Positions 4,042 through 64,000 of a stretch of 64,000 nucleotides of DNA are shown here, piece by piece. Positions within the stretch are counted from its first letter, which is position 1; each line of letters opens with the position of its first letter. Under the pieces are notes generated by a model. The model saw nothing but the letters and a program-made list of their open reading frames with translations. It did not search any database and was not told the DNA's origin. A program made the position numbers and the translations under genes. Source of the DNA: Rhododendron vialii (Eukaryota > Streptophyta > Magnoliopsida > Ericales > Ericaceae); assembly GCF_030253575.1 (NCBI RefSeq), contig NC_080558.1, positions 8,690,001 to 8,754,000 on the forward strand, given 5' to 3'.

Positions 4042-4245
4042 ATTTAATGACTAGCAAGTCTCTAGCATAAACTTCCCTGGAGAAGAAAACTCATCATTTC
4101 TCATGATCTAATAGTCAAATTGAATAATACAAATTGTGATAGAATTGTAAAGCAACACAACTCAAGCCAAACCAATGATAAGTGAAACCGAATCAGTCAA
4201 AAAGACCATCAAACAAAGGATATAAACTTTTTTTATTGTGGCCCA

Positions 4246-4280
4246 AGTCATCGCAGTTTTTGTTTTGTGCTATAAAAGGT
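4246..4280 (+). promoter_or_regulatory. Core promoter of peptide-family copy A: GGCCCAAG element and TATA box
   Basis: CTATAAAAGG starts at 4270, 53 bp upstream of the ATG at 4323. A GTGGCCCAAGT block lies about 30 bp further upstream. The same order and similar spacing are seen upstream of copy C (TATA at 31731, ATG 31780). A TATA also precedes copy D (63593, ATG 63676). Shared promoter sequence is the main reason for treating these as paralogous genes. Confidence 0.65.
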
Positions 4281-4492
4281 CATGAACCCTAGATCCCCTT
4301 CCCTAATTATACTAAAGAAAAAATGGCTCTGAAAATGTTTTTTGTACTTTGGAAAGTCCTTTTGATCTTTACCCTTGTTTTTTGCTTTGGAGGCGGCTGC
4401 AAGGGAACTGCTCGAGACTTTGAATTCCAATGTCCCTCGTAAGTTTGCTTCTCCTTTAACTTCTCATTTGTTGGAGATACTCTTACCAAATA

Positions 4493-5074: not shown

Positions 5075-5569
5075 ATTACTTTTGAATAGAAATTCTTAAC
5101 ATGTACATAAATATAATTTCATAACATCAACCGAATTCATGACATTAATTTATGTGTTATGAGCTTTAAAAGAAAAGGTCACTGAGTTTATCTAAAGCTT
5201 TAAGGCATTTTTTTTATTTTTTTTGCCCCTAAAGATTGCCATTGTTAACATGTCATTTGTCTTGTTTCAACAGATAAGAAGCTCTGGAACAGACAGGATG
5301 ATCCCTGGGGCCACCACATATAGGAATATCAAGGATTTCTTTTCAGAATATTAATCCTTGATTTTCGTGATGTCAAAATAAATCATTCAGAATAAGAGAC
5401 TGCTTACCGATCCGGACAAATTAATGTTTAGGTTCGAGTCTCGTATATTTGTAAGCTGCCTTTTTTCTTTGTCAATAATTTTTTTTTGTAGCAATAGGCT
5501 GAAGTTGATTAAACAATCAATTGTAGGGAAGTTGAATGAAAAAAAATCAATAAATCAGTGACAGACTGA

Positions 5570-9358: not shown

Positions 9359-12272
9359 CCCCGGGAACCACACGCCTAGAACCACACAATATACATATAT
9401 ATATTCACACAATATACATAAAGCTGAAAAAACTCTCCGGGAACCACACGCCGGTTCCTCTCCGGGAGGTCACAGACCGACCCCCCACACTCACCTCACC
9501 CTTTCCCTCACATTATGTCACACACCGTTCCCTACGCTCTATACATGCATATATATAGACAAGAAAACCAAATACACGTTAAGAAATAAGGTAGAAAGTG
9601 ATCATGTGCTTTGCGCACACCACCCCACTTGGGTGGAATCCTAACAGAGAGAACGAGAGAGAGAAATATCAAGCTTACTAACTGAGCATGGGCAGCTCAT
9701 CAACACCCTTTCTAACAGATTTAACCAACTTTGGACTCACTCTGCCAGCTCTGGCATTCATCTCAAACAAATGAGATGCATCGTACATGGTAGGCCTAGA
9801 ATGTGGATCGACGTGCAAGCACCAGACTGCTAGATTCAAAATGGAATCCAATTCATCTTGTAGCTTCTGACTAGTAGGAGGCGGAAGACGAGGATCCAAG
9901 ACATCTGCCAATTGTATGCGTTCGTTGTCAACGGATGAGTATAGGTTTGAATTGAGTTCTCCCGGAAGCGATCCCATCAAAATCTCAAGTGTCAAAACAC
10001 CAAAGCTGTACACGTTGCATTTCTCTGTCACTGCCATTGTGTACGATAATTCTGGCCATGCCAAGGGGGGGGAAAAAAAAACACACCAACAATGTCACAT
10101 GTTAGTTCTCACTTGCAAATCAAACTAGCTGGCCAAGCAAATAAAGAATGGCCTTTTGAACACTAATTAAAGTTACCTGGAGCAATGTATCCGAACGTGC
10201 CTGCAACCGCGGTCCAATTTGAAGAATCGGGCTTCAAAAACCTTGCCGTGCCAAAATCGGAGACATGAGCCTCCATTTCCGAGTCTAACAGAACATTCTT
10301 GCTCGATATGTCCTGATGAATTATGGGAGGCACGCAGTTGTGATGCAGGTAAGATAAAGCGTGAACCACCCCTTTAACTACGTTCACTCTCTTACTCCAG
10401 TCTAACTCCTTGGCGTCTCTCTCTCTCCTCAAAACATCTGCCAAACTTCCTCTCTCCATGTACTCGCAAACCAAAAAAGTGTGCTTTTTGTGGTAACAAA
10501 AGCCGTAGAGTTTCACGATGTTCCGGTGCCTTATTTCTGTCAGCGTGGCTACCTCATTCGCAAAACTCTTGATCTCCCCAATCTCTGAGCCTTCATTCGT
10601 GAATAGCTTTTTAACTGCTACTACCTGTTGAGGATTTACACAGAATATAAGATAGTTATCAATCTAAAGGAAGGATAGAGAAAATTTATTAGAAACTTCC
10701 AAAAATACCTGCCCACTTGGTAAGTTAACTTTGTAGACTCTGGCCGATCCTCCCTGTCCAATGCAGTATGCATCGTCGAAATTGTCTGTAGCGCGGACGA
10801 TATCTTCAAACGCAATTCTTCCACAGAAATTCTTGATCAAAAAGATGTTTTCTCCCTTCACCACATCTTCTTTCTGGCTTTTGCGGTTACTTTTTCGGTG
10901 AAGCGCGATAGCCCCAACAAGCAGAAGCAAGAGAAACAACGAGCCTAACGAGGGAGAAACTGCGATAATGATCAACCGCGAGTTTCCTCCGTTTTCCTTA
11001 CCGCCCCCAGACACTGAGTTGTTGCATGGTGTCAATCCTTGGTTTGGATCACCACAAAGATTCTTGTTATGGGAAAACGCTTCGGACGGAGACGAATTGA
11101 AAACCTTGGAGTCAGGCAGAGGACCCTCCAGTTCATTGTACGACAAATCGATGGTTGACAAGCTGAGCATTCCACTAAACGAATCCGGTATAGAACCGGT
11201 GAGAGAGTTGTGGGAGAGGTTTAAGGCTACTAGGATAATCAGCGTCCCGAGTTGAGGTGAAATCGCTCCGGTGAGTGAGTTGGAACCAAGATCAAGCAGT
11301 ATTTGTAAAGTTCCAAGATTACCAATCTGATAGGGAATGCTCCCATTCAATTGATTTTTACTCAGGCTTAGAAACAGCAATCTCGAGATGTCTCCAATTT
11401 GACCCGGAATCGGTCCATTTAGCATGTTCATGGAGAGATCAAGAGAAGCCAAATTGGACAGTCCCCCGATTTCGAATGGTATTTGACCAGAAATTTGGTT
11501 GTCACTCAAGTTTAACGTCAATAGTTTCGACAATCGTCCAACTTGAGCCGGAATTCTCCCGGATATCTTATTGGAAGAAAGGTCAAGCACTACTAGCTGG
11601 TTCAATTGGGAGATCTCCATTGGGATTTCACCTCCAATGGAATTCCCACCAAGATTCAGCCGTGTCAAGTTACTGCATTCTCCCCATGTGGGTGAGATTT
11701 TCCCTTGTAAATTGTTGTGGCTCAAGTTGATATACGTCAGGTTCGGGTACGCTCCGAAATCTTGATCAAGATTTCCGGTTAGTTGATTATAATCAAGCCG
11801 GACTTTGTACAAGGATGTGCAGTTTTTGAGGCTCACCGGGATCGGACCGGTGAAGTTATTGTACCCCGCGGTGAAATTCGCTAGCATTCCGCCTCGACAC
11901 ACTTGTGGAGGTAATTGACCACTCAAGTTGTTATCAATTAGATGAAAAACAACCAATGATGAAAGATTTCCGATTTCTTCCGGTACTGGACCGGATAAGT
12001 AGTTCGAAAACAAGCTCAAATCAGTTAACTTGGTCAAGGTGCCGAAATTCTTAGGAATCTGGCCAGAGAATTCGTTTAGGTTAAGATGTAGGAAAGTTAT
12101 CTTACTCAAATTACCCAAAGACTGAGGAATTGGGCCAGAAAATCTGCTGTTATCTATGTCCGCCAGGAGGGGACCACTGAGCAAGGTACCCTGGAAGAGT
12201 AGCCTTCGGAGGCTAAGCAGGCCGGTTTTAGCCTGACTTGACCCGCGGTCAGGAAATAACCGCGGCTCAAGC

Positions 12273-12550
12273 TGTCAAAGCACACTAATGGTTCAGTTAG
12301 TCAGTCAGTTAGGTTTGTTAGAGAAAGGATTAGTTGGTTAAGACGGTTTAGGTAGTGTTTACTCTTGTATTAGTTTTGCCAGCTGGTGTTGTAACAGAAT
12401 GGGATCATCGTGCAATCCCAGACCACTATATATGCTCAGTTCCCTGTAATTGAGAGATCAGAGAAAACAGAATACAAAGAAAGATTTCCCCTTCCTTCTT
12501 TCTCTCACTAGTTCTTGAGTTCCTCTCTCTACTTCTTGTTACTTTCTATA
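12273..12550 (+). repeat. copia-1 5' LTR
   Basis: Starts TGTCAAAGCACACTAATGG and ends TACTTTCTATA, so the termini are TG...TA and not the canonical TG...CA. A TATA-like CTATATATGC at about 12425 probably directs element transcription. Followed directly by the PBS. Confidence 0.95.
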
Positions 12551-12563
12551 TGGTATCAAAGCC
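12551..12563 (+). other. copia-1 primer-binding site
   Basis: TGGTATCAAAGCC directly abuts the 5' LTR. It matches the plant copia PBS complementary to the 3' end of initiator tRNA-Met (usual TGGTATCAGAGC), with one A-for-G difference. Confidence 0.9.
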
Positions 12564-12691
12564 ATTCTGAGACAAAAGTCCACTCGATCCTGAGAAATCT
12601 TCATCAATTACAACGATTCCTTCGATTCTGAGACAACAGTCCACTCAATCCTCCAGAAATCTTCATCAATTACAACAATTTCTTCGATTCC

Positions 12692-15600
12692 ATGGCTTCG
12701 ACTGCAGGTACAACTTCAACTACAACAACAGTTTCCTTACCTCCAGCGTTAGCATTCCTTGTGTCGAATTTTCACTCTCTTGTCAACATCAAGTTGGATG
12801 GCTTCAATTATTCTCTTTGGCGAGTTCAAGTCGAGAACGTTATGGATGCAAATGGCTTCTATAGTTACCTCGATGGATCTATTGCCGTTCCCGCACCTCA
12901 AATTCGTAATGCCGAAGGTGAACTTACTCTGAATCCTGCATATTCTCTCTGGCGTTTAATTGATTCGCAACTTAAATCGTGTCTCTCTGCATCACTGTCC
13001 CAAGCAACCCTACCTTATGTTTTAGGGCTTCGAACTGCTCACCAAGTGTGGGAATCCTTATCGAATAGATATAACTTCTTATCTGAGACTCATGTTCAAG
13101 AACTTAGAGATCAGTTGTATAATTTGTCCAAAACATCCACCATAGAGGCCTATATTGACAATATTCAAGACTTGGCTCAAAAATTGGCTGCAGCTGGTAG
13201 TCCAGTAAATGATGATGAGCTTGTTTTTCATGCCTTACAAGGTTTACCTACCGTCTTTAATGGACTCAGAACTGCTGTTAGAGCAGTTCGTACTAGAGGT
13301 CATAGTGTGTGCTTTGCTGAACTTGTGACCATGATGAAAGGTGAAGAGAAACAGTTAAGTAAGGCAACTTCAGAGATAGATGTTCACAGTACTGTTTTGG
13401 TGGCTTCTCATAGTAATTTGTCTCTAAGTAATACTCCCTCAGGGTCATCTGCTTCTCATACACCTGTCACACAGCCTCATGTTGAACCTTCTCAGTCATC
13501 AGGAGTTGGATATAATCAGTTTGCTTCCTTTCCTCCGTCAACACCTCAACATCAATACTTTCCAAGTAACTTCAGGAATTTTAACAGAGGAAGAGGAAAT
13601 AGAGGCTCACAATTTCCTAGAAATCCGTGTGAGATCTGTGGTAAAACAAACCATTCCACCAACTACTGTTACTATAGACCTCCAACTATGCCATTTGACA
13701 TGTCTGGTTCATCATGGAGGAGTTTTGCCGGTTCAACTCAGTCTTATCCATGGATGTCTTCAATGAATCCTGGTTTTCATCCAGTCAACACACCAGTTTA
13801 TCAGAATTTTCCTCAGGGACCAAGACCTGTTTCACAGTTTTCAGGATTTTCCAGATCAGATGGTAGTTTCAGGCCTGCACCTCTTATGGTTCCAATGCCG
13901 ACATCTATGCAGTCCTCTTTCCCTGCACCACCACCGTCTCACGTACATTCACCACCGTCTCACGTACATTCACATCCTACTTTTGCTGGCCTTACAGAAA
14001 ACTATGTGGTACCTTATCAATCTTCTTATGCTGGTTTTCCTCAGAATTATGTGTTGCCTCAAACTACATCATGTTTATATGGCTCAAGTTTTGCACCATC
14101 ATCAATATATTGTGCTGATAATTCTGCTGGTTCTTCCTCTCAACCTTGGTACTTTGACAGTGGAGCAACGAATCATATTACTAACAATCTGCAGAATCTG
14201 AACCTTGCTCAGACTCAGCAAACAGCTCTCCAAGAAGGTGTATTAGTTGGAAATGGGCATACACTGCCTGTCACTCACACTGGTCAAGGGCTTCTCCCTA
14301 CTCCTCATGGTAATTTTCAGCTTTCTCATATTTTGCACACTCCACTAATTACTCATAATCTTCTCTCTGTACATCAATTTGCCAAGGATAATCATTGCTT
14401 TCTTATCTTTGATTCACATGGTCTTGTCATTCAGGACAAGCAAACTCTCAAGGTTCTGTACAGGGGCTCATGCCGCAGGGGCTTGTATCCCATTCTGACT
14501 CCCTCTAGCTTTTTGTCTCCTGTTTCAACAAGTGGTTCTGCTACTGCTACTGCTTTTCTTGGTACATCTTCTGCTGAACTTTGGCATAGAAGACTTGGTC
14601 ACCCTAGTTTTCCTTTGTTTACTTCTTTAATAAATCAATTTCAGTTACCAGTCGTTAAACCTGTGTTAGTTGATTGTCCTTGTTGTCATATGGCTAAAAG
14701 TCATAAGCTTCAATTTCCTGTTTCTAAGTCATGTACTACAGCACCTTTCCAACTTGTTCATATGGATGTGTGGGGTCCATCTCCAGTTGCTTCTAATAAA
14801 GGATTCAAGTACTATCTTCTTGTCATCGATGATTTCACACGATTTTCTTGGTTATTTCCAATGCATTATAAATCAGAGGTTAAGTATAAAGTTTCTGCTT
14901 TCAAAGCATATGTTCAAACACAGTTTGGCACTTCTATTCAAACTGTTAGAAGTGATAATGGAGGAGAGTTTATTAATCACTTTCTTCTTCATTTGTTTCT
15001 TTCAACTGGTGTGATACATCAAACAACTTGTCCTCATACTCCTGAGCAAAATGGTATTGTTGAAAGGAAACACAGACATTTGATTGAAACAACTATCACT
15101 CTTTTGTTGCAAGCTAGATTACCTGTTTCCTTTTGGTTAGAGGCCTTAACAACTGCTGTTTATCTAGCCAATCGTTTACCTCACTCCTATTTGCATTTTC
15201 AAGTTCCTTATGTTCTTTTGTTTAAAACAACACCAAATTATTTGAACCTTAAACCATTTGGTTGTTGTTGCTTTCCCTGGCTTAAGCCATATGTGGCACA
15301 TAAGTTGCTACCTAAATCTACACCCTGTGTTTTCTTGGGTTACTGTGATAATACTAAGGGATTTAGGTGTTATGATCCCATAACCACAAAGGTCTATACT
15401 TCCAGACATGTTAAGTTCGTTGAACATGATTTTCCTTATCCTACTTTAGTTCCTTTCTTGTCTACATCTAACACTGTGACTCCTACATTCAATGTACCAT
15501 TAACCACTTATGATGATATCACTGTTTCTGTTCCATTTTCTGTGTCTTCTTCTTCCTCTTCTGTTCCTATCTCTTCTTCTATACCTTCTTTGGATTCTTT

Positions 15601-17458
15601 ACCTCAATCTTTTCCTATTCCTTGTTCTTCTGTTTCTCTTTCAAATGCTTCATCTCCTCTTCATTCTACTCCTGTCACTCTCTCTCCTTCTGCTCCTGAA
15701 TCAGTTGCTCCATCTTCATTAGTTCTTTCTTCACCTGTCTCCTCTTCTCCAACTCATTGTACAGAGCTCATTTCTCAACCTCCTTCTGTTCCTTGCACTA
15801 CTAACACACACTCTATGGCTACTCGATCTAAAAATGGGATTGTTAAGCCTAAAACCATTGTGAGTTTGACTGCAGTAGCTAGTGCTTTTTCTACTTCTAC
15901 TACTGAACCATCTCATTTTGCTGAGGCTGTTAAACATTATGAGTGGCAAGCTACCATGGCAGAAGAGTATAAGGCCCTTGTTAAGCAAGGGACTTGGTCT
16001 CTTGTTCCACCCCCTCCTGGGGCAAACGTTATTGGTTGTCAATGGATCTACAAGATCAAACGCAATTCAGATGGCAGTATAGCTAGGTATAAAGCAAGAC
16101 TGGTGGCAAATGGAAATCAACAGACCGAAGGTTTGGACTTCACAGAAACCTTTAGTCCAGTCATAAAACAACCAACAGTTCGTATTGTTCTTAGTTTAGC
16201 AGTTCATTATGATTGGCCTATTCGTCAATTAGATGTTTCCAATGCGTTCCTTCATGGCATTGTTGAGGAAGAGGTCTACATGAGACAACCACTTGGCTAT
16301 AAAAGTGTTTCTCATCCAACCCATGTTTGCAAACTCAACAAAGCTCTTTATGGTCTCCGACAGGCCCCACGGGCATGGTTCTCCTTATTCTCTAGTTTTC
16401 TCCTTCAACAGGGGTTTATTAATAGTAAAGCAGATGCTTCATTGTTTTCTCTTAAGACTGATCATGGCATCACTTTGATTCTGGTCTATGTTGAAGATAT
16501 TCTTATCACTGGGAGTAATTCAGAGTTTATTTCTGAGCTTATCAAGACTTTGAGTACCAGATTTGTGATGAAAGATCTTGGTTCCCTCAGCTATTTTCTG
16601 GGTATAGAAGTTCAGAAACATGGTAAGCGTCTCATTCTTTCCCAAAGTAAGTATGCTACAGATCTTCTTGTTAAGGCAGGCATGTATGAGTGTAAGTCTA
16701 GTCCATTTCTTTCTTCTACAAAACCTGCTATCCTAGATCCAGACCCCTATTTTGAGGATCAGCAATGGTACAGGACTGTGGTTGGTTCTCTTCAGTACTT
16801 AACTCTCACCAAACCAGAAATTTCTTTTGCTGTCAACCTGGCCTGTCAACATATGCATGCCCCAAGACAAAGCCATTATGTTGCTGTAAAAAGGATTCTG
16901 AGGTACATTAAAGGTTGTATTCATCAGGGTCTTTACTTTGTGCCTGGTCCTTTGACCTTGACAGGGTTTTCTGATGCTGATTGGGCAGGGGATAATGTAG
17001 ACAGACGGTCAACAACTGGTTTTTGTTTGTTCTTGGGGTCCAATTTGATCTCTTGGTGTGCTAAGAAGCAGCATACAGTTGCTCGCTCTTCCACGGAAGC
17101 AGAATATCGAGCCTTAGCACAGACAGCTGCTGATATTACTTGGGTCCAACAGTTGCTTTTGGATGTTCATGTCACTCCCACATTACCCCATTTGATTTGG
17201 TGTGACAATCAGAGTGCCATCGCTTTGGCATCTAACCCTATTTTCCATGCTCGGACGAAGCATGTGGAGGTGGACTATCATTTCATTCGAGAAAAAGTGC
17301 TGAGTAAACAAATTCAAATTTATCACATTGGTTCTTTGGCACAGGTTGCTGACATTTTTACCAAGTCATTGGCAGTGGATAGGTTTCTTTTCTTGAAAGG
17401 CAAACTCATGGTCTGTGATACTCCCATGAGTTTGCAGGGGGCTGTCAAAGCACACTAA
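12692..17458 (+). CDS. copia-1 gag-pol polyprotein, 1588 aa
   Basis: One uninterrupted frame encodes a copia polyprotein. The order is: gag (UBN2-like), a CCHC zinc knuckle CEICGKTNHSTNYC (residues ~310-325), aspartic protease (FDSGATNH, ~485), GAG-pre-integrase and HHCC zinc region (LWHRRLGH, CPCCHMAKSHK), integrase core with D-D-E (HMDVWGP, RSDNGGEF, EQNGIVERKH), reverse transcriptase ([31 protein letters not shown]) and RNase H (FSDADWAGD, STEAEYRAL, WCDNQSA). The order protease-integrase-RT defines Ty1/copia. The RT catalytic box is YVED where YVDD is expected (GAA codon at about 16492), which should abolish or impair polymerisation. A 21-bp tandem duplication lies in gag (about 13934-13975). 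The stop lies inside the 3' LTR (17456-17458). Confidence 0.95.
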   Translation: MASTAGTTSTTTTVSLPPALAFLVSNFHSLVNIKLDGFNYSLWRVQVENVMDANGFYSYLDGSIAVPAPQIRNAEGELTLNPAYSLWRLIDSQLKSCLSASLSQATLPYVLGLRTAHQVWESLSNRYNFLSETHVQELRDQLYNLSKTSTIEAYIDNIQDLAQKLAAAGSPVNDDELVFHALQGLPTVFNGLRTAVRAVRTRGHSVCFAELVTMMKGEEKQLSKATSEIDVHSTVLVASHSNLSLSNTPSGSSASHTPVTQPHVEPSQSSGVGYNQFASFPPSTPQHQYFPSNFRNFNRGRGNRGSQFPRNPCEICGKTNHSTNYCYYRPPTMPFDMSGSSWRSFAGSTQSYPWMSSMNPGFHPVNTPVYQNFPQGPRPVSQFSGFSRSDGSFRPAPLMVPMPTSMQSSFPAPPPSHVHSPPSHVHSHPTFAGLTENYVVPYQSSYAGFPQNYVLPQTTSCLYGSSFAPSSIYCADNSAGSSSQPWYFDSGATNHITNNLQNLNLAQTQQTALQEGVLVGNGHTLPVTHTGQGLLPTPHGNFQLSHILHTPLITHNLLSVHQFAKDNHCFLIFDSHGLVIQDKQTLKVLYRGSCRRGLYPILTPSSFLSPVSTSGSATATAFLGTSSAELWHRRLGHPSFPLFTSLINQFQLPVVKPVLVDCPCCHMAKSHKLQFPVSKSCTTAPFQLVHMDVWGPSPVASNKGFKYYLLVIDDFTRFSWLFPMHYKSEVKYKVSAFKAYVQTQFGTSIQTVRSDNGGEFINHFLLHLFLSTGVIHQTTCPHTPEQNGIVERKHRHLIETTITLLLQARLPVSFWLEALTTAVYLANRLPHSYLHFQVPYVLLFKTTPNYLNLKPFGCCCFPWLKPYVAHKLLPKSTPCVFLGYCDNTKGFRCYDPITTKVYTSRHVKFVEHDFPYPTLVPFLSTSNTVTPTFNVPLTTYDDITVSVPFSVSSSSSSVPISSSIPSLDSLPQSFPIPCSSVSLSNASSPLHSTPVTLSPSAPESVAPSSLVLSSPVSSSPTHCTELISQPPSVPCTTNTHSMATRSKNGIVKPKTIVSLTAVASAFSTSTTEPSHFAEAVKHYEWQATMAEEYKALVKQGTWSLVPPPPGANVIGCQWIYKIKRNSDGSIARYKARLVANGNQQTEGLDFTETFSPVIKQPTVRIVLSLAVHYDWPIRQLDVSNAFLHGIVEEEVYMRQPLGYKSVSHPTHVCKLNKALYGLRQAPRAWFSLFSSFLLQQGFINSKADASLFSLKTDHGITLILVYVEDILITGSNSEFISELIKTLSTRFVMKDLGSLSYFLGIEVQKHGKRLILSQSKYATDLLVKAGMYECKSSPFLSSTKPAILDPDPYFEDQQWYRTVVGSLQYLTLTKPEISFAVNLACQHMHAPRQSHYVAVKRILRYIKGCIHQGLYFVPGPLTLTGFSDADWAGDNVDRRSTTGFCLFLGSNLISWCAKKQHTVARSSTEAEYRALAQTAADITWVQQLLLDVHVTPTLPHLIWCDNQSAIALASNPIFHARTKHVEVDYHFIREKVLSKQIQIYHIGSLAQVADIFTKSLAVDRFLFLKGKLMVCDTPMSLQGAVKAH

Positions 17459-17720
17459 TGGTTCAGTTAGTCAGTCAGTTAGGTTTGTTAGAAAAAGGGT
17501 TAGTTGGTTAAGACGGTTTAGGTAGTGTTTACTCTTGTATTAGTTTTGCCAGCTGGTGTTGTAACAGAATGGGATCATCGTGCAATCCCAGAGCACTATA
17601 TATGCTCAGTTCCCTGTAATTGAGAGATCAGAGAAAACAGAATACAAAGAAAGATTTCCCCTTCCTTCTTTCTCTCACTAGTTCTTGAGTTCCTCTCTCT
17701 ACTTCTTGTTATTTTCTATA
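17443..17720 (+). repeat. copia-1 3' LTR
   Basis: Same 278-bp length and same TG...TA ends as the 5' LTR. Differences seen by eye are at the GAGAAAGGA/GAAAAAGGG stretch (2), GACCAC/GAGCAC (1) and TTACTTT/TTATTTT (1). Immediately followed by the second copy of the CAAGC target duplication. Confidence 0.95.
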
Positions 17721-18321
17721 CAAGCTGCCCTGTTATGGCGTTTCGCCCAAAATCCAGCTCAACAACCTTGGTGAGATTCGCGACAGAGAGAGGGATTGTG
17801 CCCGAGAAAGAGTTAGTGGAGAGATCAAAGATACACGAGATTCGAGAGTAGGCCGATGTTGGTGGGTATGGTACCGGTGAGTTGATTGTATTTGAGGTCG
17901 AGACGGAGGAGGAGAGGGAAATATGACAAGTTTAAATGGTCAAGAGTACCTTGTAGTCCCGTGTAGGCAAGGTTCAGCCCGGTTACATTTCCTGCAGCGT
18001 TGCATGAAATTCCACGCCAGTTGCATGGGCTTGAAGCTGAAGAGTTGCCATTTGTTTGGTTGAAAATCCACGAGCTGACAATTGTTTGGTTGTGTAGGCT
18101 TTGTTTCCACCGGAGAAGTGCTTTGGCTTCGCGATTTTGTGGTGGTTGAGCGGTGGAAGGAGGTGGGAAAACCACCAGAACGGCTGAGAGAGCCAGAGCA
18201 AGGTAGTTGAATAGGTTCGGCATTGTGAAAAGGTATGATTCGGTTTCGGTGGTCTGATTTTTCTGGCGCACTTTATTTATTTCCTCTTTCAAGTGGAAAG
18301 AAAGGGGCAGACTTATTTGAT

Positions 18322-18616
18322 TTTTTTTGGCCCACCTCAAGTCTTACACAAACAATTCAAGGCATTCATTAATTGTAAAATATTTTTTCAAGAATCTCCG
18401 CTAAAAATCACATCAATTCAATATCTATAGATGTTTGATCCAATCATCTAACTATTCATTATTTAGAAATCAAAATAAAAAATTGGATGATTCAATCGAA
18501 CATTTATAAGTATCAGATTGAGTTGATTTTTTGCGGAGGCTCTTGAAAAAATATTTTACATTTAATGAACGGCTTGGATTCTTTGTGTAGGACTCGATGT
18601 GGGCCCAAAAAAAAAT
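18322..18616. mobile_element. Foldback MITE directly upstream of the receptor kinase
   Basis: An inverted repeat has arms of about 100 bp. TTGGCCCACC followed by CAAGTCTTACACAAA on the left pairs with TTTGTGTAGGACTCGATGTG and GGGCCCAA on the right. Inner stretches also pair: TTGTAAAATATTTTTTCAAG with CTTGAAAAAATATTTTACA, and CTCCGC with GCGGAG. Its edge is about 100 bp from the kinase ATG, so it occupies the 5' UTR or core promoter region. No clear TSD was identified. Confidence 0.7.
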
Positions 18617-23893: not shown

Positions 23894-24175
23894 AGAAAAG
23901 ATTTCTTCCTTTTTTGATTTGCTATAGAAATGCCATTATTTTTTTTGAACAGAAGAAATGCCATTATTGACATGCCACAATTGTCTTGTTCAACAGAGAC
24001 ATCACCAAGATTATGTGCACCCCGTGGAGCCAGGAGGCCCCGCACGACATTAATTACTATTCAACCTCGATCTTTCGGAATAAGAGGCTCCTCATCAAGA
24101 CTAACGTTTGGTTTTCTATATTTTTCTACGAGTAATTGAAAATAAACAAATTATCTAAATGAAAATAACTATTGA
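23894..24175 (+). pseudogene. Orphan second exon of the small secreted peptide family, copy B
   Basis: This segment is a clear duplicate of 32585-32865, the intron end, exon 2 and 3' flank of copy C. It shares GCCATTATTGACATGCCACA, TTGTCTTGTTCAACAGAGAC, CCAGGAGGCCCC and the following 3' sequence. The acceptor CAACAG is at 23991-23996. One frame ends HPVEPGGPARH and then TAA at 24051-24053, like copy C (LGEPGGPSRH). A 25-bp deletion relative to copy C shifts that frame with respect to the splice site. No signal-peptide exon was found upstream. It is called an exon-only pseudogene created by segmental duplication. Confidence 0.6.
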
Positions 24176-26102: not shown

Positions 26103-26368
26103 TGAAGAAGTTCTTAATCCAGAGGGAAAACAAAATCAAAGGAAAGCAAATGAGATAGAGAGAATCGGAGAGAGAGAAAGTGTTCTCGTTTTTATTCACT
26201 GAATTTTTTTCTCGATGATTACAAAGTAGAACCCCCTTGGCTCTTATAGCTTTCCCTAAACAACTCAGCTAATCTTCCCACTAATTACAACAACCCAATT
26301 ACTCTAACTAATCACAATGACGTGGCAGCTAAGAACCAATTGTACACGTGGCAGACTTCTCCTTTACA
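26103..26368 (-). repeat. copia-2 3' LTR
   Basis: On the plus strand it runs TGAAGAAGTTC to CTCCTTTACA. It is nearly identical to the 31108-31372 copy. Differences seen are AATTTTTTTC/AATTGTTTTC and CAGCTAAGAA/CAGCTGAGAA. Confidence 0.93.
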
Positions 26369-29300
26369 CTTCCCCGCAAACTTATGGGAGGATCTCCTAC
26401 CATAAGTTTGGACTTCAAAAATTGAAATCTGAGCACAGGCAAAGCCTTGGTAAAAATGTCAGCTATTTGATCCTCTGAGCCAATGTGAAGCAAAACAATG
26501 CGTTTACTAAGCACTTGTTCTCGAATGAAATGATAGTCAAGCTCTATGTGCTTGGTCCTGGCATGAAAAACGGGATTAGATGCAAGAGAAATAGCAGACC
26601 TATTGTCACACCACAAAACAGGTGGCTGGGAAAACTGAATGTGTAATTCAGAGAACAATTGTTGCAACCACACCAAGTCACTAGCCGTCTGGGCCATAGC
26701 CCTATACTCGGCCTCAGTGGATGACCTAGCGACGGTGTGCTGTTTCTTGGCACACCACGAAACCAAATTAGACCCCATAAAAATACTAAAACCAGTAGTG
26801 GACCTGCAGGTAATGGGATCGCTTGCCTAGCCTGCATTTGCATAGGCTGTGATAGATAAAGGGCTGGAAGTAAAATGCAAGCCTTGATTCACTGTGCCTT
26901 TGCTATATCGGAGAATGAGTTTAACAGCAATGAAATCACTAAGCTTTGGACAATGCATATGCTGACATGCAACATTAACAGAGTAAGAAATCTCTGGACT
27001 TGTCAAAGTCAAATATTGCAAAGATCCCACGATAGTTCAAAATAGAGAAACATCTTCAAAGAGAGAATCTGGAATTGATAAACTAGGTTTAATGGAAGTA
27101 GGAGAATCACTAGGTTTACATTCCACCATGCCAGCCTTAAGAAGCAATTCAGAAGCATACTTGGATTGAGAGAGGAACAAACCAGAAGAAGAAGTGGTTA
27201 CCTCAATCCCTAGAAAGTAGTGAAGACTGCCCAAATCCTTCATAACAAACTTGGTGCTGAGAGTGTGAATGAGAGTAGTAATGTAAGCAGAATCACTACT
27301 GGTGATAACTATATCATCCACATAGATCAAAACAAGAGTAATACAGCTTCCTTGAGTCAAAATGAACAATGAAGTATCTGCCTTGCTAGAATGAAACCCC
27401 AATTCAACTAAAAAATTAGAAAACATTGCCTACCATGCTCTTGGAGCTTGTCTAAGTCCATAAAGAGCCTTGGAAAGCTTGCAAATAAAATCAGGATGAG
27501 CTAGATCCCTATACCCCAAGGGCTGTTTCATATACACATCCTCAAATATCACACCATGCAAGAATGCATTTGAGACGTCCAACTGTCGAAGAGGCCATTT
27601 ATTATGAACTGCAAGACTAAGAATAACTCTGAGGGTGGGTTGTTTAATGACGGGACTAAATGTCTCAGTAAAATCTAGTCCTTCTGCTTGTTGGTTTCCA
27701 TTCGCCACAAGTCTAGCTTTATACCTAGCCACTGAGCCATCTGAGTGCTTCTTGATCTTATAAATCCATTGACAGCCTATGACATGACCATGAGATGGAG
27801 GGGGAACAAGAAGCCAAGTACCTTGTTTAACCAATGCTTCATATTCCTCTGCCATAGCCTTTTGCCATATAAGATGATGAATAGCCTCAGAAAAATGAGA
27901 CGGTTCTCGAGTAGGTGAAGAAGAAGAACAACGAGAAGAAGAAGCAACAGAAGTAAAGAGAGTAAGAGGATGTTTTGGCTTAAAAATACCACTTTGTGAT
28001 CTTGTTCTCATAGAATGAGTTGGACCAATTATGGGAGCAGGTAAAACAGATGAAAAAAGGAACAGAAGAAACATGAACAGAAAAGGAATTAGAACAACCA
28101 AAATCAGAACTGGATAAAGGAAAATCAAGAAATTCAGAACCAGAAAGAATAGGAAAAGAAGAAGACTCAAAAACGGGAACTGGAATACTTACTTGTGGGG
28201 GCTGAGAAGAAGGAAGAGGAAGATGAGGATTAACAGTCACAACAATATATCCTGAAAATTAGTAAGTGGAATAGAAAAGGAAGAGAGAATGGGATCTGGA
28301 GAATCTAAAGCAAAAGACTTAGACAGAATCATGGAATAAGGAAAATCAGTTTCAACAAATCTCACATGTCTAGAAATGTAAACTTTATTAGTGATATGAT
28401 CAAAACACCTGTAACCTTTTGAAGTGGTGCAATACCCCAGAAATACATAGGGAGTAGATTTAGGAACCAACTTATGAGAATGATAAGCCTTTAACCATGG
28501 GAAGCAAGCACAACCAAAAGGTTTTAGAGTAAGATAATCAGGTTGTGCATGAAAAAGAAGGACAAAAGGAACTCGAAAATTTAAAGAAGAATGAGGTAAA
28601 CGATTAGCTAGAAAAACAGTGGTAAGCAAAGCTTCCAACCAAAAATGAGCAGGCATTCCTGCTTGATGAAGAAGAGTAAGGGTTGTATCCATAAGATGTC
28701 TATGTTTCCTTTCCACCACACCATTTTGCTCTGGTGTGTGTGGACAAGACGTTTGGTGTATTATACCATGGATAAGAAACAAATGAGTAAGATAGTTATT
28801 GACAAACTCTTTCCCATTATCAGATCTCACAGTTTTTACAGTAGTATGAAACTAATTTTGCACATAAGCTTTGAATTGAGCAAGAGTAGACTTAACATCT
28901 GACTTATAGTGTAAAGGAAACAACCAAGAGTATCTAGTACAATCATCTATGATTAAGAGATAATATCTGAAACCCTTTACTGAAGGAATAGGAGCAGGGC
29001 CCCATACATCCATATGCAACAAATCAAAAGGGCTATCAGATTTGGAAACAGACAAAGGAAAGCTCAACGTGTGACTTTTCACACTGTTACAACTGTAACA
29101 AGAAACATCATAAGGTTTGACAACAGGCAAATCATATTGCTTTATTAATGACTGAAAAAGAAGGAAACTTGGATGGCCAAGCCTTTGATGCCACAAAGTG
29201 GCAGAAGATGTTGGCACAATTTTATTGTTATGAAAAGCAAGAGGAACCTGAGTAGAAGCAAGCTCAGAGCAACTCTGAATAGGGTAAAAACCCTTGTGAC

Positions 29301-31020
29301 ATGGGCCGTGAAATAGAATTTGATTAGAATGGTTGTCCCGAATGACATAACCAGAGGAATTGAATGTTTGAGAACAATTATTGTCTCTATCAAACTGAAA
29401 AACAGAAAGCAGATTGTGTGTAATGGCAGGTGTGTGCAAAACATTGGTTAAATGAAAGTTCGCACTTGGTGTAGGTAAAATCCCCTTTCCAGTACAAGCA
29501 ATAGATAAGGACTTACCATTTCCAATCATCACCCCTGCCCCTGCTGAATAAGGTTGAGTGTGTGACAGGTTAGTAACATCAGGAGTTACATGATTGGTGG
29601 CTCCACTATCAAAATACCAACTCTAAGAAGTAGAACCAGGTCCAGAATTCCCCATATTTGGTGAATGAGTGGCAGTATAAGCAGTAGCATAAGGAAAGCC
29701 TGAGAAAAACAGCTCTGAAGGAGGTTCAAACACTGAAGGAATTTGATGTGAGTAAAATCCATTGCCACAAGAACCACTTTTAGGACCAATATGTTGAGGA
29801 AAACCAGTATTAGCAAAATGAGCCTGAGGAGGTCCATGTTGAAAAGTAGAAGAGTAATTCTGTCCATAGGATGGTGCTGAGAACTGACATGGAAAAGTAG
29901 GTCTCCACATGTTTGTCTGAGGAAATCCTGAAGAAGGAAGCTGGTGGCTGAAACCTAATGGCTGTGTGTTTCTATAATAGCAAGTACGTGCGGTATGATT
30001 ATCTTTGCCACAAATTTGACAACATCCTGGTTTAGAAAAGGGAACAAAACTTTGTCCTCTTGGCTTGGTCCTATTGTTGTTAAATCTTGAATTGGACTGA
30101 GAAAACTGAGGTAAGAAGGAACCTTGTGGAAACTGTGGCTGAAACATAGGATTCAAAGCTTGAAAGCTGTGTGAAGACTGAAAGCCTGGGGGTTGTGACT
30201 GAAAGCCTGGGGGTTGTGAAGGTTGAGCTACAGGTGTAAAGAAAGATCTAGTGTTTAGAACCATAGACCCTTGAGTTGAACTACTTGCTCTAGAAATATC
30301 AAGACCTTGTAGTTTTTGTGTAGCAACAAACACACTAGTAGAATCAGTGACTCCTTTAGACTTATGTATACGAGATTCCTCAGACTTCAAAATGGAAACA
30401 AGTTCATGAAATTTCAAATCTCTTTGTGCTCCAATGGTTGACTTTATAGGATCAAACTCTGTTGGTAAGCCATTTAAAGTGTGAAAGATCATATCATCAT
30501 CATCTACCATATAACCAACTGCACTCAACTTTTGTGCACAAATTTTGATCTCATCAATGTATTGGTCCATTGTACCAGTTTTGGTAGAGTTGAACAACGT
30601 TCTCTTGAGATCATGAATATTGGACCTAGACACAGAATTAAATCGTTGCTCCAAACAACTCCAAACTTCAAAGGCATGTTCTAACCCTAAAACTAAGGGT
30701 AATGCAGAAGCAGATAACGATGCAGTCAGACAAGAAAGCAATTGATTATCAATAAGCTTCCAACGCAAATAAGCTGAATTTGTGACAAGATTATTACTTG
30801 TATCACGGATCTGCATCGGTGGAGGACCAATCGTGCCATCAACATATTCAATAAAACCATTCGCACGAAGAGCATTTAACACCTGAGTTTTCCATAGAAG
30901 GTAATTATCGAAACTTAACTGGATTTTGACGAGCGTGTGAAAATTGGAGACCAGAAATGCCAGAGCTGGTGGCATTGTGACTGCAATTTCACTTGTAGAT
31001 CCAGACATTTCGTTGAACAA
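26329..31020 (-). pseudogene. copia-2 gag-pol, five nonsense codons and two frameshifts
   Basis: Gag starts at 31020 (UBN2-like, CCHC knuckle CQICGKDNHTARTC) and is open to a TAG at 29623, just before the protease (SWYFDSGATNH). Then follow pre-integrase (LWHQRLGHPS), integrase (HMDVWGP, RSDNGKEF, EQNGVVERKH), RT ([18 protein letters not shown]) and RNase H (STEAEYRAM, WCDNRSA). Relative to copia-1 there are stops at 29623, 28852 (TAG replacing CAG), 27430 (TAG), 27037 (TGA replacing an Arg position) and 26827 (TAG). Frameshifts lie near 28232 and about 28050. A 27-bp tandem duplication occurs in gag near 30180-30230. Unlike copia-1, the RT YVDD box is intact. It cannot encode its own replication proteins. 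Confidence 0.93.
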
Positions 31021-31107
31021 GCTTGAAACCCTAAGATGAAGAGTACAACAGTTCTTGATTTAAAAACCCTTGGATCGATTGACTTCCGTCGTCGGGCTCT
31101 GATACCA

Positions 31108-31372
31108 TGAAGAAGTTCTTAATCCAGAGGGAAAACAAAATCAAAGGAAAGCAAATGAGATAGAGAGAATCGGAGAGAGAGAAAGTGTTCTCGTTTTTAT
31201 TCACTGAATTGTTTTCTCGATGATTACAAAGTAGAACCCCCTTGGCTCTTATAGCTTTCCCTAAACAACTCAGCTAATCTTCCCACTAATTACAACAACC
31301 CAATTACTCTAACTAATCACAATGACGTGGCAGCTGAGAACCAATTGTACACGTGGCAGACTTCTCCTTTAC
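31108..31372 (-). repeat. copia-2 5' LTR
   Basis: The PBS complement GCTCTGATACCA lies immediately to its left. The outer end reads CTCCTTTAC followed by GAATT, so the terminal A seen in the other LTR is absent. Confidence 0.92.
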
Positions 31373-31699: not shown

Positions 31700-31740
31700 T
31701 GGCCCAAGTTTCCTTTAGTTTTATTTGGGCTATAAAAAGC
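31700..31740 (+). promoter_or_regulatory. Core promoter of peptide gene copy C
   Basis: GTGGCCCAAGT at about 31699-31709 and CTATAAAAAG at 31730-31739, 49 bp before the ATG. The following leader (CCATGAGCCCTA...CCCTGTCATTAT) is recognisably similar to that of copy A, including an upstream ATG in the same place. Confidence 0.65.
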
Positions 31741-31779: not shown

Positions 31780-32743
31780 ATGGCTTTAAAAATGCTTTTT
31801 GTCGTTTGGAAACTCCTTTTGTTCTGTACCCTTCTCTTGGCTTTTCAGGTGGCTACTAGGGAACTGCTCCAAACTTCCCTTGACTCGGGTGAGTTTTCCC
31901 CTCTCATCTGTTATTTACTTGATCCGAAAATAATAGAAAATGCTAGAATACCAACTCTATATATATTTGAGTGTATACGATATGCACCCTTCAATTATGA
32001 ATAGAATTTTATGATACTTTGATACGAATTCGTAACCTTATTTCTTGAATTCACAACTTTGTTTACAAATATATAATAACTGCGTATAAATTCAAGAAAA
32101 TAGCCTTAACGTCATAAATTTTTACGTTATGAGATTTTGTCTTGATGTTGTGAATCTTTTGTACAAACGTGATGAGTTTCCTACGTATATTATGTGTTTT
32201 TATATATACAAAGGTTAATTATGAATTTTAGGCGAATAATTCAATAATTGCATATCGTACACCTACGAATAAGGAGTCTATGTTGTAGCAGTTTCGAGAA
32301 CAATACTCTGTAATTTCAGCCATAATGGTGATATTTTTGTCCCCTCTAGAATGTGAAATTTTTGAATGCTTTTTATCGACTTGTTCGGTTTATCTCGACC
32401 AAAAGAAACCGGAATAATAACCGAAACATGGACCACATTTTTACTATTAAAATAAAAAGAAACGTCACTGAAGATAAGAAAACGAAACGCAAACAATGTC
32501 GAATTTGATTAGTCTTTTTTTCTTCTTTCTTCATTGACTTTTTAAATAGGGTAGTACTTGCTGAAAAAAGAATTTTATGGTTCAATAGAAAAGATTTCTT
32601 CCTTTTTTGATTTGCTAAAGAAATGCCATTATTGACATGCCACAATTGTCTTGTTCAACAGAGACATCAGCCTCGGCCCGAAGAGGTTGGGCGAACGCGA
32701 TGACCCGCACCTCGGGGAGCCAGGAGGCCCCTCACGACATTAA
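31780..32743 (+). CDS. Small secreted peptide precursor, copy C (~62 aa, two exons)
   Basis: Exon 1 (31780-31888) encodes MALKMLFVVWKLLLFCTL and a further hydrophobic stretch, then VATRELLQTSLDS, an evident signal peptide with probable cleavage before ATRELLQ. A GTGAGT donor follows in phase 1. The second exon is at 32664-32743. With the acceptor CAGAG|AC it reads DISLGPKRLGERDDPH and then LGEPGGPSRH, stop TAA. The paralogue comparison (copies A, B, D) supports the exon boundary and the DDP...H end. If the acceptor two bases upstream is used, the frame changes to a different 44-residue tail. There are no cysteines in the mature part. The architecture (signal peptide, short variable region, Pro/Gly-rich basic C-terminus ending in His) resembles precursors of secreted signalling peptides, but no named family was recognised. 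No expression evidence. Confidence 0.5.
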
Positions 32744-46730: not shown

Positions 46731-46970
46731 TACACTCTAGGAAAAAGGGGATGATGATTAACCCACATGGGTCCTTCCCATTTCCCGAAAACGAAGGGGT
46801 AGTGGGCGGTTATATCTTCTCCTCATTTACTCCCTCTATAACTCTCTTCTTCTTTCTAATTTCCAAAACCCATTTCCATTTTTCTTTCTTCCACGATCGA
46901 GAACTGTCCCCCTTCTTCTTCATTCCTCAGGGAAAACAAGAACCCTACTCCTCGGTTCTTTACCCCCACC

Positions 46971-49968
46971 ATGGCTCCCAAAAAGTCTCGGCAGAAGGCA
47001 GCAAGTTTGGCGACCCAAGTCATGCAAATAATCGAAGGAGAAGAAACCCCAATCCACACAGAGATCTTGATCCCGCAAACCATAGCAAAATCAGGAATGG
47101 CGCTTGGCCCGGCCTTCGATGGTGAGTTTCCCTCTTTTTTCTCTTCGTACTATCCCCTGGCCGAAGACTCCTTACCTTTTGGTTCGGTCAATCCTGACTG
47201 GAGCAACTACCATAAACCAAATCCCAATCGATTATGGCCTTGGCCTGACAAGGAGTACCTCTCCTGGTTGGACCAAATGTCCGAGGCCAAGGGCCATCTG
47301 TGGAAATCAATTGGTATCCATGATGCCATCATGCTTAGTAGGTCTGCCATAAACATGGACAATGCCCTCTTTTTTGCTGCGGCCCAATTCTGGTCTACCA
47401 TCACTAACAGCTTCCATTTTAGGGTTGGGATGATGGGGCCGACACTACAAGACATATGCTTCCTTACCGGCCTCCGCGCTCACGGCGTTGAGGCCAACTG
47501 CTTTCTAAGTCAAAAGACTCCTGTCTTTGAGTATCCTGCCTCCGAGTTCCTAGCTTATACCCGTTTCATTCCCTTTTTCCATGGAGAAGGGGATGTAACC
47601 GAAGAGGAGCATGTAGCTTTTTTGCTCTACTAGCTAAACAAATTTAGTTTTTGTGTTTCCTCGAGTCGGATTACCAAAGATTTCACGGATTTGGCCAAGG
47701 CCTTGGCTTCGGGTCACAAGCTAGCCATGGCCCCTTTGATCTTGGCCTATTTGTACAGAGGAATGCATGATCTTTTAGGGAATCGCTATGTGTTCGCTGC
47801 TGGTCCATTATGGATTATGGCCTTATGGCTCTGGGCCTACTTTCCTACTTTGGGCCCGAAACCCAATAAAAACCCCGAAAACACATGCTACGGCCTGCAC
47901 TACCGTGACCTCTCCCCCCGAGAACATACGTTCGAGGCCTGCTTCCATTATTTTTATACCGATTTGGCTTCAATGGGCACGGGTTGGATGCCTTTTGAGA
48001 GGGACACAGTCCCTACATGGCTCAAAGCCGATCCATCTGAGTTTGAGGAGGATGATGACCAAAAAGAGATATGGGCTAGCTTCTTAATCTCCTGAGACCT
48101 GTTGTTCAGTCTGAGTGCCCAATCAAAAAATGAGAAGTCCGGAGTTGAGTTCTATAATGCTGCTCAATTTGCCCGACAATACGGCTTACTTCAACTCATT
48201 CCTCTTCCTCCCTATGCATCACTGAATGTTAACTTCATACTAAGGCCTATCGTTGAACTAAAATCTTTGGAAAAAGTTAAGGATGACTTTGTCAAGGCCA
48301 AGGCTGACTTCGAACTCCTCCCTTATTCTGAATTCCCTGAGAAATCCGACGAGTTCGCTGCTTGGCAGAAAGGTTACATCAAACCCCTGTTTTCCAAGCC
48401 TGTGAAAGAAATCCTGAAGGAGATAATGCCTCCACCTCCTCCCGAGCCCAAGAAGGGTGGCTCTAAAGCCAAGACTACTTCGGCAACTTCTTCGAAATGG
48501 AGGAGTAAGCTTTGACCGCTTTTTCCTTATATAAACTATCGCCATATTTCCTTGTTCTAACAATTTCGATTGATATCGGCCTCGAAGATAAAGAAGTCGA
48601 ACAACAGGAAAACGTCGCCAAGAAGGCTAAGATGCTCCCTGGATTGGCCTCAAAGGCCGTGCCTGGGAAGGGTCTTCCCCCAAAGGTATCTCAATTTTCA
48701 AGCCTTTACTATTGTTAACTTGTGGATTTTGATTTTTATGCCTCTTGATCCTTGTTCAAGCCATCGAGGCAGCTATTGCTGGGCGTACAAGGGGTAGTTC
48801 TACCAAGTCCTTGGACAAAGAGGAATCTCCCCCTACGCCCGTACTCGTTTATCCCTTCTTGGCTTTAACCTCTTGTGTTTTTCTCGTCTGGTTCTAACCA
48901 CTTTTCTCTTCTGAAATTAGGCCACCAAGAGAAGCACTGGTAGCGGGGTCACCAAGCCTACCCTTGCCAAAATCAAAAGGGCACAAGTCACTGTAAAAAG
49001 AAAGACCAAAAGGGGTACCTCTACTGAGGAATCGGATTCCAGTACTCTCGTCGTTCATGTAAGGCAATACTCTCCGTAGGTTCTATTTTCAGCCATTGTT
49101 AACACTAAACTCCTACTGGCCTCGGCAGGAACTTGACGACCCCGATTCTTCAGAGAAACTTGAGGGCTCTAAAGGGGAAACTCAAGCCACCTCTTCGTCC
49201 CACGAAACACAGAAAACTCACTCACTTGCCGAGAAGAAGCCCACTCTTCTTGACCTGGATGATGAATCTTTTGACAAGTTTTTTCAGACCCTGGAAGAGT
49301 TAGTGAACCCAACCATTTCAAGAACCTCTGGTAGTGGAATTGGGTCATCAACCCCAGCATCATTCACTCCCGAAGAGATCAATCAAGCTAAGGAAATCCT
49401 GAAGGCAGCCCTAAACCTGGGCATCAAATCTGCCTTCCAACCAGACCATTACCCTTCCCTTCAGAAATCGATGAACATCCTGGTCAAATCCCAGGCCTTA
49501 GGGAGCAATGCTGAATCTGCCTTACAACTCTTCCTCCGGGATCTTCCAAACCTGAAGAGGTCCTTCATGTCGGCCACCGAGAAGCGTACCCTTGCGACCT
49601 CCAAACTCACCAAGATCGATGACCTGCAGCAAGAATTGAAACAGGGGCTTGGGGCGCAGAACGAGCTCAAGGCAGAGATTGAAACGGCCAAGACTAGGCG
49701 CAAAGAGCACCTCTCGACCATCCAATCCCTAGACCAACAGTTGATCGAAGCCCGACAGCAATTGGCAGACCATGGACAGCATAAAGCCTCGCTAGCCCAG
49801 AGGAGGCAAGAACTTCTCGACGCTGCTCAAGGTCCCTTAGATGCTCTTCAGACTTTGATGGTCGAAAAACCGATAGCCGAGGCCTCAAGGGATCGAGCAG
49901 AAATAGTGATCAATGATGCCACTATGGCCTGGACGGGTCTCAAGGCCAACCTGGAAAATGAGCTCTAA
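46971..49968 (+). pseudogene. Multi-exon plant mobile domain (PMD) gene antisense in the Tat element
   Basis: The first exon (46971-48504) encodes a plant mobile domain (aminotransferase-like, MAIN/MAIL type). Its features include FHFRVGMMGPTLQDICFLTG, HGVEANCFL, the FLLY*LNKF segment, LAPLILAYLYRG-like MAPLILAYLYRG, WAYFPTLGP, and CFHYFYTDLASMG. One frame runs through two nonsense codons: TAG at 47631 where Trp is expected, and TGA at 48093 where Arg is expected. Splice sites then suggest exons at 48588-48685, one near 48761-48840 (boundaries unclear), 48921-49058 (basic, KIKRAQVTVKRKTKRG) and 49129-49968. The last encodes a Ser/Thr-rich stretch and a coiled coil of about 120 residues (DDLQQELKQGLGAQNELKAE onward), stop at 49966. 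Introns can survive because the gene is antisense to the genomic RNA. Function in the element is unknown. Cellular PMD proteins act in silencing and genome stability. Confidence 0.78.
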
Positions 49969-60285: not shown

Positions 60286-61200
60286 CCATTAAATCTCCCT
60301 GTATTGTGTTGCTTTGGATTTACGCTTCAGAGGTGAGTAATTACAAATATACTATGTTTACATAATTATGGTTTAGAATGTTGCATACGTGGTTATCTAT
60401 ACTACTTCTTTTAAATGTACGAAAATGTTTTCTCCTTTTTCTTTTCCAAAAATGCCCCCAGTACTTGCAACTAATATCAGTCCTATCTATACTTCTTGCC
60501 CACCGTCACAACCCAACCCAACCCAACAACTCCTTATCAAAGGGTGAGATGTTTGTTTATTTTTATAACCTCGCTCCATCTCTGGAACGCCCCAACCCAA
60601 ACGACTTATACTCTCTCCATCTCTCGAACGCTCCATCGGCCATCAACTAGAAACATCATGTCTTCCTCTGGCTCTCCCTCCATCTTCTTCTTCTCCGGCC
60701 TTCATCGTGGTTCCATCTTCCTCCATGTTCTCCTTCGGCCTTCAATCCTTTTATAGACTGTTACTAAGATCCTATTCTCTCCGCATTCATTGAAGACGAG
60801 CCCGGTGTCCGTTTACAGACGTCTTCATGTCTAGCCCTTCATCCATTTCTCATTCATACAGAAGACCTGCCTGGACTTCCAAGTTCTCTACTTCCAACAA
60901 TATTTGCATAGTAAGTTGCATTTTCCCCACCCTCTCTTCCCCATCTTCATCGATTGTAAACATGTGCATCAAGTATAGGTATCTTTGCTTTCAACATCAA
61001 ATTGATATTCCTTAAAACAAAATTGAATTGTTGATGTCATGCACACCACTTGTTCGATGGAATTACCCAACATTGTGTGTTGTTTGTTGTCTTTGGGATA
61101 GTGCCGACTGTCGAGCAAGCCAGACTCCGTTGCCCCAAATTTATACCAAGTACTACAACCCTTGACATGGATGATTTTGTCTCACAAATTAAAAGTTTAA
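60286..61200. other. Intergenic; possible remainder of the gypsy LTR
   Basis: The first ~80 bp (GATTTACGCTTCAGAGGTGA) resemble LTR sequence and may end the interrupted LTR series. Short open frames at 60378-60650, 60496-60756 and 60827-61015 have no recognisable domain. Confidence 0.3.
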
Positions 61201-61204
61201 TTTG

Positions 61205-61312
61205 GGCCAAAGAGGTTGGCATGGTGGACAAGGTTTCCCGATGTTCGCGTTCGAATCTCGCTACTGCAAGTTGCTACTGTACTGTACTGTTTTCTGTTTT
61301 ATTGTAACAAAA
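61205..61312 (+). mobile_element. tRNA-related SINE-like segment
   Basis: An A-box-like TTGGCATGGTGGAC at about 61216 and a B-box-like GCGTTCGAATCTCG at about 61246 are spaced as in a Pol III promoter. The segment ends in TTTATTGTAACAAAAAAAA. No target duplication was found. Confidence 0.4.
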
Positions 61313-63675: not shown

Positions 63676-64000
63676 ATGGGTCTAAGAAAGCTTTTTGTTG
63701 GTGTGCAAGTCCTTTTGATCATCTCCATCATTCTCTTGGCTTTCGAGGTGGCTGCCAGGGAACTTCTCCAACAATATCCGAGCCCTCTAAATCCTTGTAA
63801 GTTTACCATGTTTATTTACTTTAGTTTTTGTACAGCCGACTGTTCGGATCATTTTTACGTGTACCTAGGGATGACAAATGAACCGAGCTTTTCGTTTAAT
63901 TGTTAATTTACTTGAATTAAACATTTTTAAGCTTTTGTTTTTGTTCAAACAGATGATCATAAGATGGAGAGGGAGCTCGCTGGTTCGGGCACTTTGGATA
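63676..64000 (+). CDS. Small secreted peptide precursor, copy D (partial, runs off the window)
   Basis: Exon 1 (63676 to about 63800) begins MGLRKLFVGVQVLLIISI, followed by a further hydrophobic stretch and EVAARELLQQYPSPLNP, the same signal-peptide and RELLQ pattern as copy C. A GTAAGT donor follows in the same phase (1). The acceptor TTCAAACAG ends at about 63952, and exon 2 reads DHKMERELAGSGTLD before the window ends. The second exon differs from the DDP/EPGGP ends of copies A-C, so the C-terminus of the family is variable or D is a distinct subgroup. Reading through the donor gives a longer false frame. Function unknown. Confidence 0.55.

Follow-up and report, generated by a model that had tools for sequence, protein, structure and literature searches.

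In this study, we asked what is represented by a set of short, related coding fragments that lie scattered over a 64,000-nucleotide stretch of Rhododendron vialii DNA (C2:8690001-8754000, here called the window; the genome comprises 13 contigs and 532.6 Mb). The initial annotation had described four copies, A to D, as two-exon small secreted peptides with a conserved promoter and diverged tails. We hold with moderate confidence that these are pieces of a family of small secreted signalling-peptide precursors that has been amplified in tandem, forms one 1.4-Mb cluster and has candidate receptors in the kinases linked to it. The parts of this family that lie in the window are the following:

4323..4438, plus strand: first (signal) exon of copy A, frameshifted, with TATAAA at 4272-4277 and GGCCCAAG at 4240-4247
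5274..5323, plus strand: second exon of copy A, with the end QDDPWGHHI
23997..24053, plus strand: copy B, an orphan second exon without exon 1, whose later frame reads DYVHPVEPGGPARH
31780..31888, plus strand: first exon of copy C (C type), with a GTGAGT donor, TATAAA at 31731-31736 and GGCCCAAG at 31701-31708
32662..32743, plus strand: second-exon region of copy C, where the TAA at 32741-32743 is in frame only from acceptor 32664
61147..61300, plus strand: 3' part of an E-type peptide gene remnant (93% over 154 nt)
63676..63796, plus strand: first exon of copy D, intact, with TATAAA at 63594-63599
63953..64000, plus strand: second exon of copy D, cut through by the window edge, with the end LDKPWPTNV in the genome

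All four reported copies are real relatives, but the E-type remnant at 61147-61300 is a fifth and the family as a whole is far larger. The first exons of A (4323), C (31780) and D (63676) are homologous as claimed (73-81% mutual identity over 93-98 nt, E 5e-10 to 2e-20), and the GGCCCAAG block does lie upstream of both A and C. Exon 1 donors are GTAAGT or GTGAGT and the intron is in phase 1 in intact copies. The TATAAA boxes are likewise present, but at 51 (A), 49 (C) and 82 (D) bases from the ATG rather than at the 49-76 bp given. Only D is intact, and A, B and C are damaged. The frameshift reported for A is borne out by an exon 1 of 116 nt, 1 nt longer than the 115 nt of the intact sibling at 8771433, and B is indeed an orphan. 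Copy D had been called partial; it is cut by the window edge, but the genome holds a complete gene of 63 aa whose stop ends at the equivalent of window position 64023. The second exons of B and C are alike (78% identity over 299 nt, E 1.6e-73), but the EPGGP(S/A)RH end that they were said to share belongs to damaged copies and needs non-conserved acceptors. In copy C the sibling-type acceptor at 32662 puts exon 2 out of frame, because the copy is 1 nt shorter there than its sibling at 8799435, and the DISLGPKRLGERDDPHLGEPGGPSRH reading requires an AG 2 bases later. In copy B both AGs at the conserved place (23997, 23999) fail to give the EPGGPARH frame in phase 1, which is reached only from an AG further in, at 24010. 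Among the 37 intact genes described below, a related tail (EPGGPGGRR) occurs only in that at 7962401. Other features of the window are a copia-type LTR element at 26103-31372, the second in the window, which has 265-nt repeats that are 99% identical and ends about 400 bases upstream of the copy C ATG; frames with a plant mobile domain (PMD, PF10536) at 46860-48092; and tandem-like repeats with units of 49-119 nt at 6606-7174.

The size of the family became apparent on searching the whole genome. Clear first exons, each of at least 91 nt, were found at 58 places, and every one of these is on chromosome C2 and in plus orientation; 60 places had been found at first, of which two of 29 and 26 nt (7439360, 7652036) were removed. 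Together with seven weaker places, namely six weak tblastn matches (E 0.0085 to 1.03) and one fragment (8156067), the list, merged by hand, comprises 65 places over 1,396,359 bases (1.40 Mb). DNA searches gave at least 66 matches with copy C as the query (40 of 67 candidates scored) and at least 44 with copy D (40 of 69), and a protein search (tblastn) for exon 1 with an E limit of 10 yielded 55 matches, all 55 candidates being scored. The family counts are lower bounds, because the DNA searches scored only the best 40 of their 67 and 69 candidates. Among the matches listed, all those to the peptide family fall on C2 at 7.40-8.80 Mb and none places a signal exon outside this cluster, an absence that rests mainly on the protein search; the family is probably lineage-specific. 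Its members fall into four subgroups, E (MASSKLFVVLQ...), D (MGLRKLFVG...), C (MALKMLFVVWK...) and A (MALKMFFVLWK...). Large block duplications mark C2 8.15-8.59 Mb, where the series D, C, receptor, E returns every ~130-150 kb.

We modelled 55 of the 58 clear places (7440544, 7468049 and 7651457 were left out), and 37 encode an intact precursor of 52-69 aa with a putative signal peptide, a phase-1 intron and a second exon. The other 18 comprise seven loci for which no acceptor was given, several of which offer a possible other acceptor, six without an ATG, two with a frameshift, two with a short product and window copy C. Of 53 family loci, 47 have a TATA[AT]A box at 30-110 bases upstream, where shuffled bases would give 4.5. 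The family at large fits the earlier picture of small precursors encoded in two exons, of which the first is signal-like and the second more diverged, behind a conserved TATA region. Two second-exon copies in the same phase follow a single signal exon at 8169479 (L034), 8298847 (L036), 7841356 (L010), 8586607 (L039) and 8062114 (L031), and no exon 1 was found between the paired copies at any of these loci. Both acceptors are present in L034, L036 and L010, and one acceptor AG has been lost in each of L039 and L031; it is possible that such pairs serve as alternative C-terminal exons.

What the family shares is a C-terminal, D-x-P(-W) core. Second exons were located by the similarity of their surroundings and then read in phase 1, which gave 41 sequences, 37 from the intact genes and four from further copies. 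D-x-[PSL] is found in all 41 and D-x-P in 37, while D-x-[PSL]-W and D-x-P-W are found in 34 and 30, respectively. Of these second exons, 14 end in NP and 13 in forms of P.H[GE]. A typical core is DDPWGHNP, and YHKMERELVNSDDPWSKGHNPRHG, YHKMDRELITGNKPDNPWPHNP and ETAPSPTKKLGKRDDPWPVEP are examples of tails. Basic residues (KR or RR) precede the core in C-type genes (8 of the 41), and cysteine occurs beyond residue 27 in only 2 of the 37 intact precursors. A short precursor, a hydrophobic N-terminal stretch, here judged by eye, and a conserved C-terminal core, which together mark the small secreted signalling-peptide precursors as a general kind, are all present.

The initial annotation had seen diverged tails in a rapidly evolving family, but the core does not diverge freely. 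From 35 distinct intact genes we obtained pN/pS values of 0.50 (bootstrap 0.40-0.60) for the core, 0.71 for the linker, 0.92 for the signal part and 0.47 for what remains of exon 1; the test took in intact genes only and is biased toward constraint. Across all genes together the core is constrained, and at this level there is no support for positive selection having made the tails variable. The proposed contrast between a conserved exon 1 and a diverged exon 2 is seen, but part of the apparent conservation of exon 1 comes from low divergence at its synonymous sites too, with a pS of 0.17 in the signal part as compared with 0.48 in the rest of exon 1, 0.64 in the linker and 0.54 in the core. 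This low synonymous divergence suggests homogenisation or recent spread of the signal part, and the contrast between exon 1 and the core may be due to spread or gene conversion. By group, core pN/pS is 0.56 (0.37-0.75) in E, 1.07 (0.78-1.46) in C and 1.56 (1.17-1.85) in D, so that relaxed or diversifying change may have occurred inside the C and D groups, which are represented by eight and five sequences, respectively. These values near or above 1, together with the 18 of 55 loci not counted intact, are among the points that speak against our main reading.

The cluster contains a second amplified family, which the initial annotation had not noticed and which is represented in the window by a broken gene:

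9681..18343, minus strand: MIK2-like LRR receptor kinase gene, broken, with LRRNT at 17828-18343, LRRs at 10667-12274 and kinase at 10166-10663 and 9681-10094
12271..17720, plus strand: copia-type LTR element inside the receptor gene, with 280-nt terminal repeats 99% identical and an RVT_2 domain, outside the peptide family

The frames of this receptor carry LRR, kinase and LRRNT_2 domains. A genome search with a 2590-base receptor query gave at least 55 rows (40 of 55 candidates scored). Among the matches listed, every row at 80% or above lies on C2 at 7.47-8.81 Mb, where hand-merging gave about 18 places, nine of which cover the whole query; the other matches listed reach 67-74% and lie on C4, C6, C7, C10 and C11 and on C2 at 10.7-10.9 Mb. 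The 18 or so receptor places and the 65 peptide places are interspersed within the one 1.4-Mb interval, the receptors being on the minus strand at 16 of 18 places and on the plus strand at two, both in the E-rich part. L043 and L068 each have an open frame of 880 codons that runs to a kinase intron, and L069 has one of 705, with ectodomain pN/pS values of 0.26-0.43 between the three; open receptor copies lie at 8788494 and 7915586. The catalytic loop of the kinase reads IIHQDISSKN in the window receptor (10166-10663) and IIHRDISSKN in L043, L068 and L069. In alignments with solved structures, two of which were printed for L043, the best single stretch of L043 is with MIK2 (8weg; 329.9 bits, as compared with 257.8 for At4g26540); by summed score At4g26540 is ahead of MIK2 for L043, and for the window receptor GSO1 comes first and MIK2 next. 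Judged from these structure-database alignments, 'MIK2-like' is the best label for the linked kinases, which we take to belong to receptor class XIIb.

Based on these findings, we propose the following mechanism. A TATA promoter stands before exon 1, which encodes the signal peptide and a mature N-terminus of the RELV/RELLQ kind; after the phase-1 intron, exon 2 encodes a linker and then the C-terminal core, ~8-13 residues long (D-x-P-W-G-H-N-P, in some members extended by R-H-G). We infer that the precursor would be secreted and then cut, outside the cell or on the way out, in the C type presumably after the basic residues in KR/RR-D-x-P-W, and that the resulting short, cysteine-free C-terminal peptide would signal by binding an LRR receptor kinase. 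The best candidate receptors would be the MIK2-like kinases amplified alongside the peptides. These are natural candidates because both families have been amplified here and no close relative of either is among the matches listed elsewhere, and the map suggests a locally amplified set of signals and receptors. That the peptides are ligands of the linked MIK2-like receptors we nevertheless put forward only tentatively, because segmental duplication alone could give the same map. The same caution applies to the wider proposal of a co-amplified ligand-receptor supercluster, in which ~65 D-x-P-W-x-H-N-P peptides and ~18 MIK2-like kinases would co-evolve, with the peptides as ligands and some alternative C-terminal exons; as a whole this seems doubtful to us.

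Of the other explanations, the one that survives best is that the peptides are true secreted signalling or defence peptides whose linkage to the kinases is accidental, a founding segment with both genes having been amplified as a block while the actual receptor is encoded elsewhere. We consider this possible but less than likely. It would explain why the series D, C, receptor, E is repeated in unchanged order at ~8.15-8.17, 8.28-8.30 and 8.57-8.59 Mb, and it agrees with the upstream comparison, in which no promoter block common to receptor and peptide genes was found. The only upstream match, between the window receptor and 7982459, was discounted as a shared promoter, because it aligns in both orientations, which fits an inverted repeat. 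However, receptor copies are also found in the older, E-rich part of the cluster (7.47 and 7.64 Mb), in opposite orientation and at 80-87% identity, and the pairing is therefore older than the recent blocks.

That the family consists of divergent members of a known hormone family, be it PSY, RGF, CLE or GmPep914-like, we regard as improbable. In a similarity test on 35 typed core peptides (the damaged copies B and C included), with each control made up of 60 shuffles, the core did beat the shuffles under the strictest control, with z values of 3.3 for RGF, 2.1 for PSY and 2.2 each for CLE and GmPep914/890, followed by 1.5 for IDA/PIP/CEP, 0.8 for PSK and -0.2 for CIF; RGF alone exceeds all 60 shuffles, and some members, such as DYPIPINRKHSNP, look close. 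Yet these scores are modest and alike for several families, which points to shared composition or convergence, and no motif of PSY, RGF, CLE, CIF, IDA/PIP/CEP, PSK or GmPep914/890 as a parent family was found. The CLE motif, for which the pattern P.GP[ND]P.H[HN] was used, occurs in 0 of the 37 intact precursors. The same is true of both PSY motifs given in the available excerpts, DYXXXX[AP]NXXHXP (PMC11641228) and DYX5-7NXXHXP (PMC10629525), DY itself being present in 3 of 37, and of the C-terminal DY...HN/NN end of RGF/GLV peptides, a pattern that we drew from sequences in an excerpt of PMC11534595. The earlier placement of the family outside PSY, RGF and CLE is therefore upheld by motif. The family does resemble PSY in its short D-, P-, N- and H-rich C-terminal peptide (PMC11641228, PMC10629525, PMC11534595, in excerpt), with N..H in 25 of 37, and the RGF1 sequence DYSNPGHHPPRHN (PMC11534595) resembles the DDPWGHNPRHG of this family; RGF/GLV precursors, however, are ~100 aa, and their DY...HN end is absent here. 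The soybean GmPep914/890 octapeptide DHPRGGNY (excerpt of PMC7730307) has the D.P.G.N. of DDPWGHNP, but RGGNY differs from WGHNP; the comparison covered the mature peptides. Literature searches on core strings, on RELLQ small secreted peptides and on tandem signalling peptides in Rhododendron gave no paper, and among the papers listed for Rhododendron MIK2 or linked ligand-receptor clusters nothing on this peptide family was seen. We class it as a new peptide family, known in kind but unusual in its genomic setting.

That the array is now mostly dead, consisting of functionless, decaying copies of a once coding small-protein gene, for example one whose signal exon was shared with glycine-rich proteins, has little probability. 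In favour of it, 18 of the 55 modelled loci are not counted intact, three of the four reported window copies are damaged and the Pfam glycine-rich protein family (PF07172) matches three of six scanned proteins, but in the signal region only and at best with E 0.0027 and 18.7 bits against a gathering cut-off of 30. Against such decay stand 37 intact genes with consistent splice sites, TATA boxes and a conserved core (pN/pS 0.50), and the lack of a glycine-rich tail in all 41 second exons listed.

Taking the fragments, as we prefer, as signalling-peptide precursors with linked candidate receptors, two known systems invite comparison. MIK2-like receptors occur beyond the range of the SCOOP peptides. 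In Arabidopsis, MIK2 is the receptor of SCOOPs, which are the plant peptide ligands described for it and have been reported only from Brassicaceae, according to the available part of PMC8448819. The excerpt describes, as seen here, a signal peptide, a variable part and a conserved C-terminal part, tandem duplicates and a receptor like the linked kinases, and the cleavage site of SCOOP12 is preceded by a basic pair, which may be compared with the KR/RR before the C-type core (PMC8448819). The family in Rhododendron differs in its C-terminal core and in having no conserved SxS motif (PMC8448819, in excerpt); the known MIK2 ligand motif is not shared, because S.S is found past residue 26 in only 9 of the 37 precursors. 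Another plant in which a different peptide family has multiplied among MIK2-like receptors would offer candidate ligands for direct synthesis and testing. The RISP/SPUF genes of poplar are, in the part of PMC3975113 available, likewise orphan small-protein genes among LRR receptor genes, and there too a couple was proposed from position. The receptors in that case are LRR-RLPs without a kinase, whereas here LRR kinases accompany one homologous peptide family, and a shared promoter region of ~300 nt is reported there and none was found here (PMC3975113, in excerpt). If the proposed link holds true, this would be the second case, after poplar RISP, in which ligands were found through their position among receptor genes.
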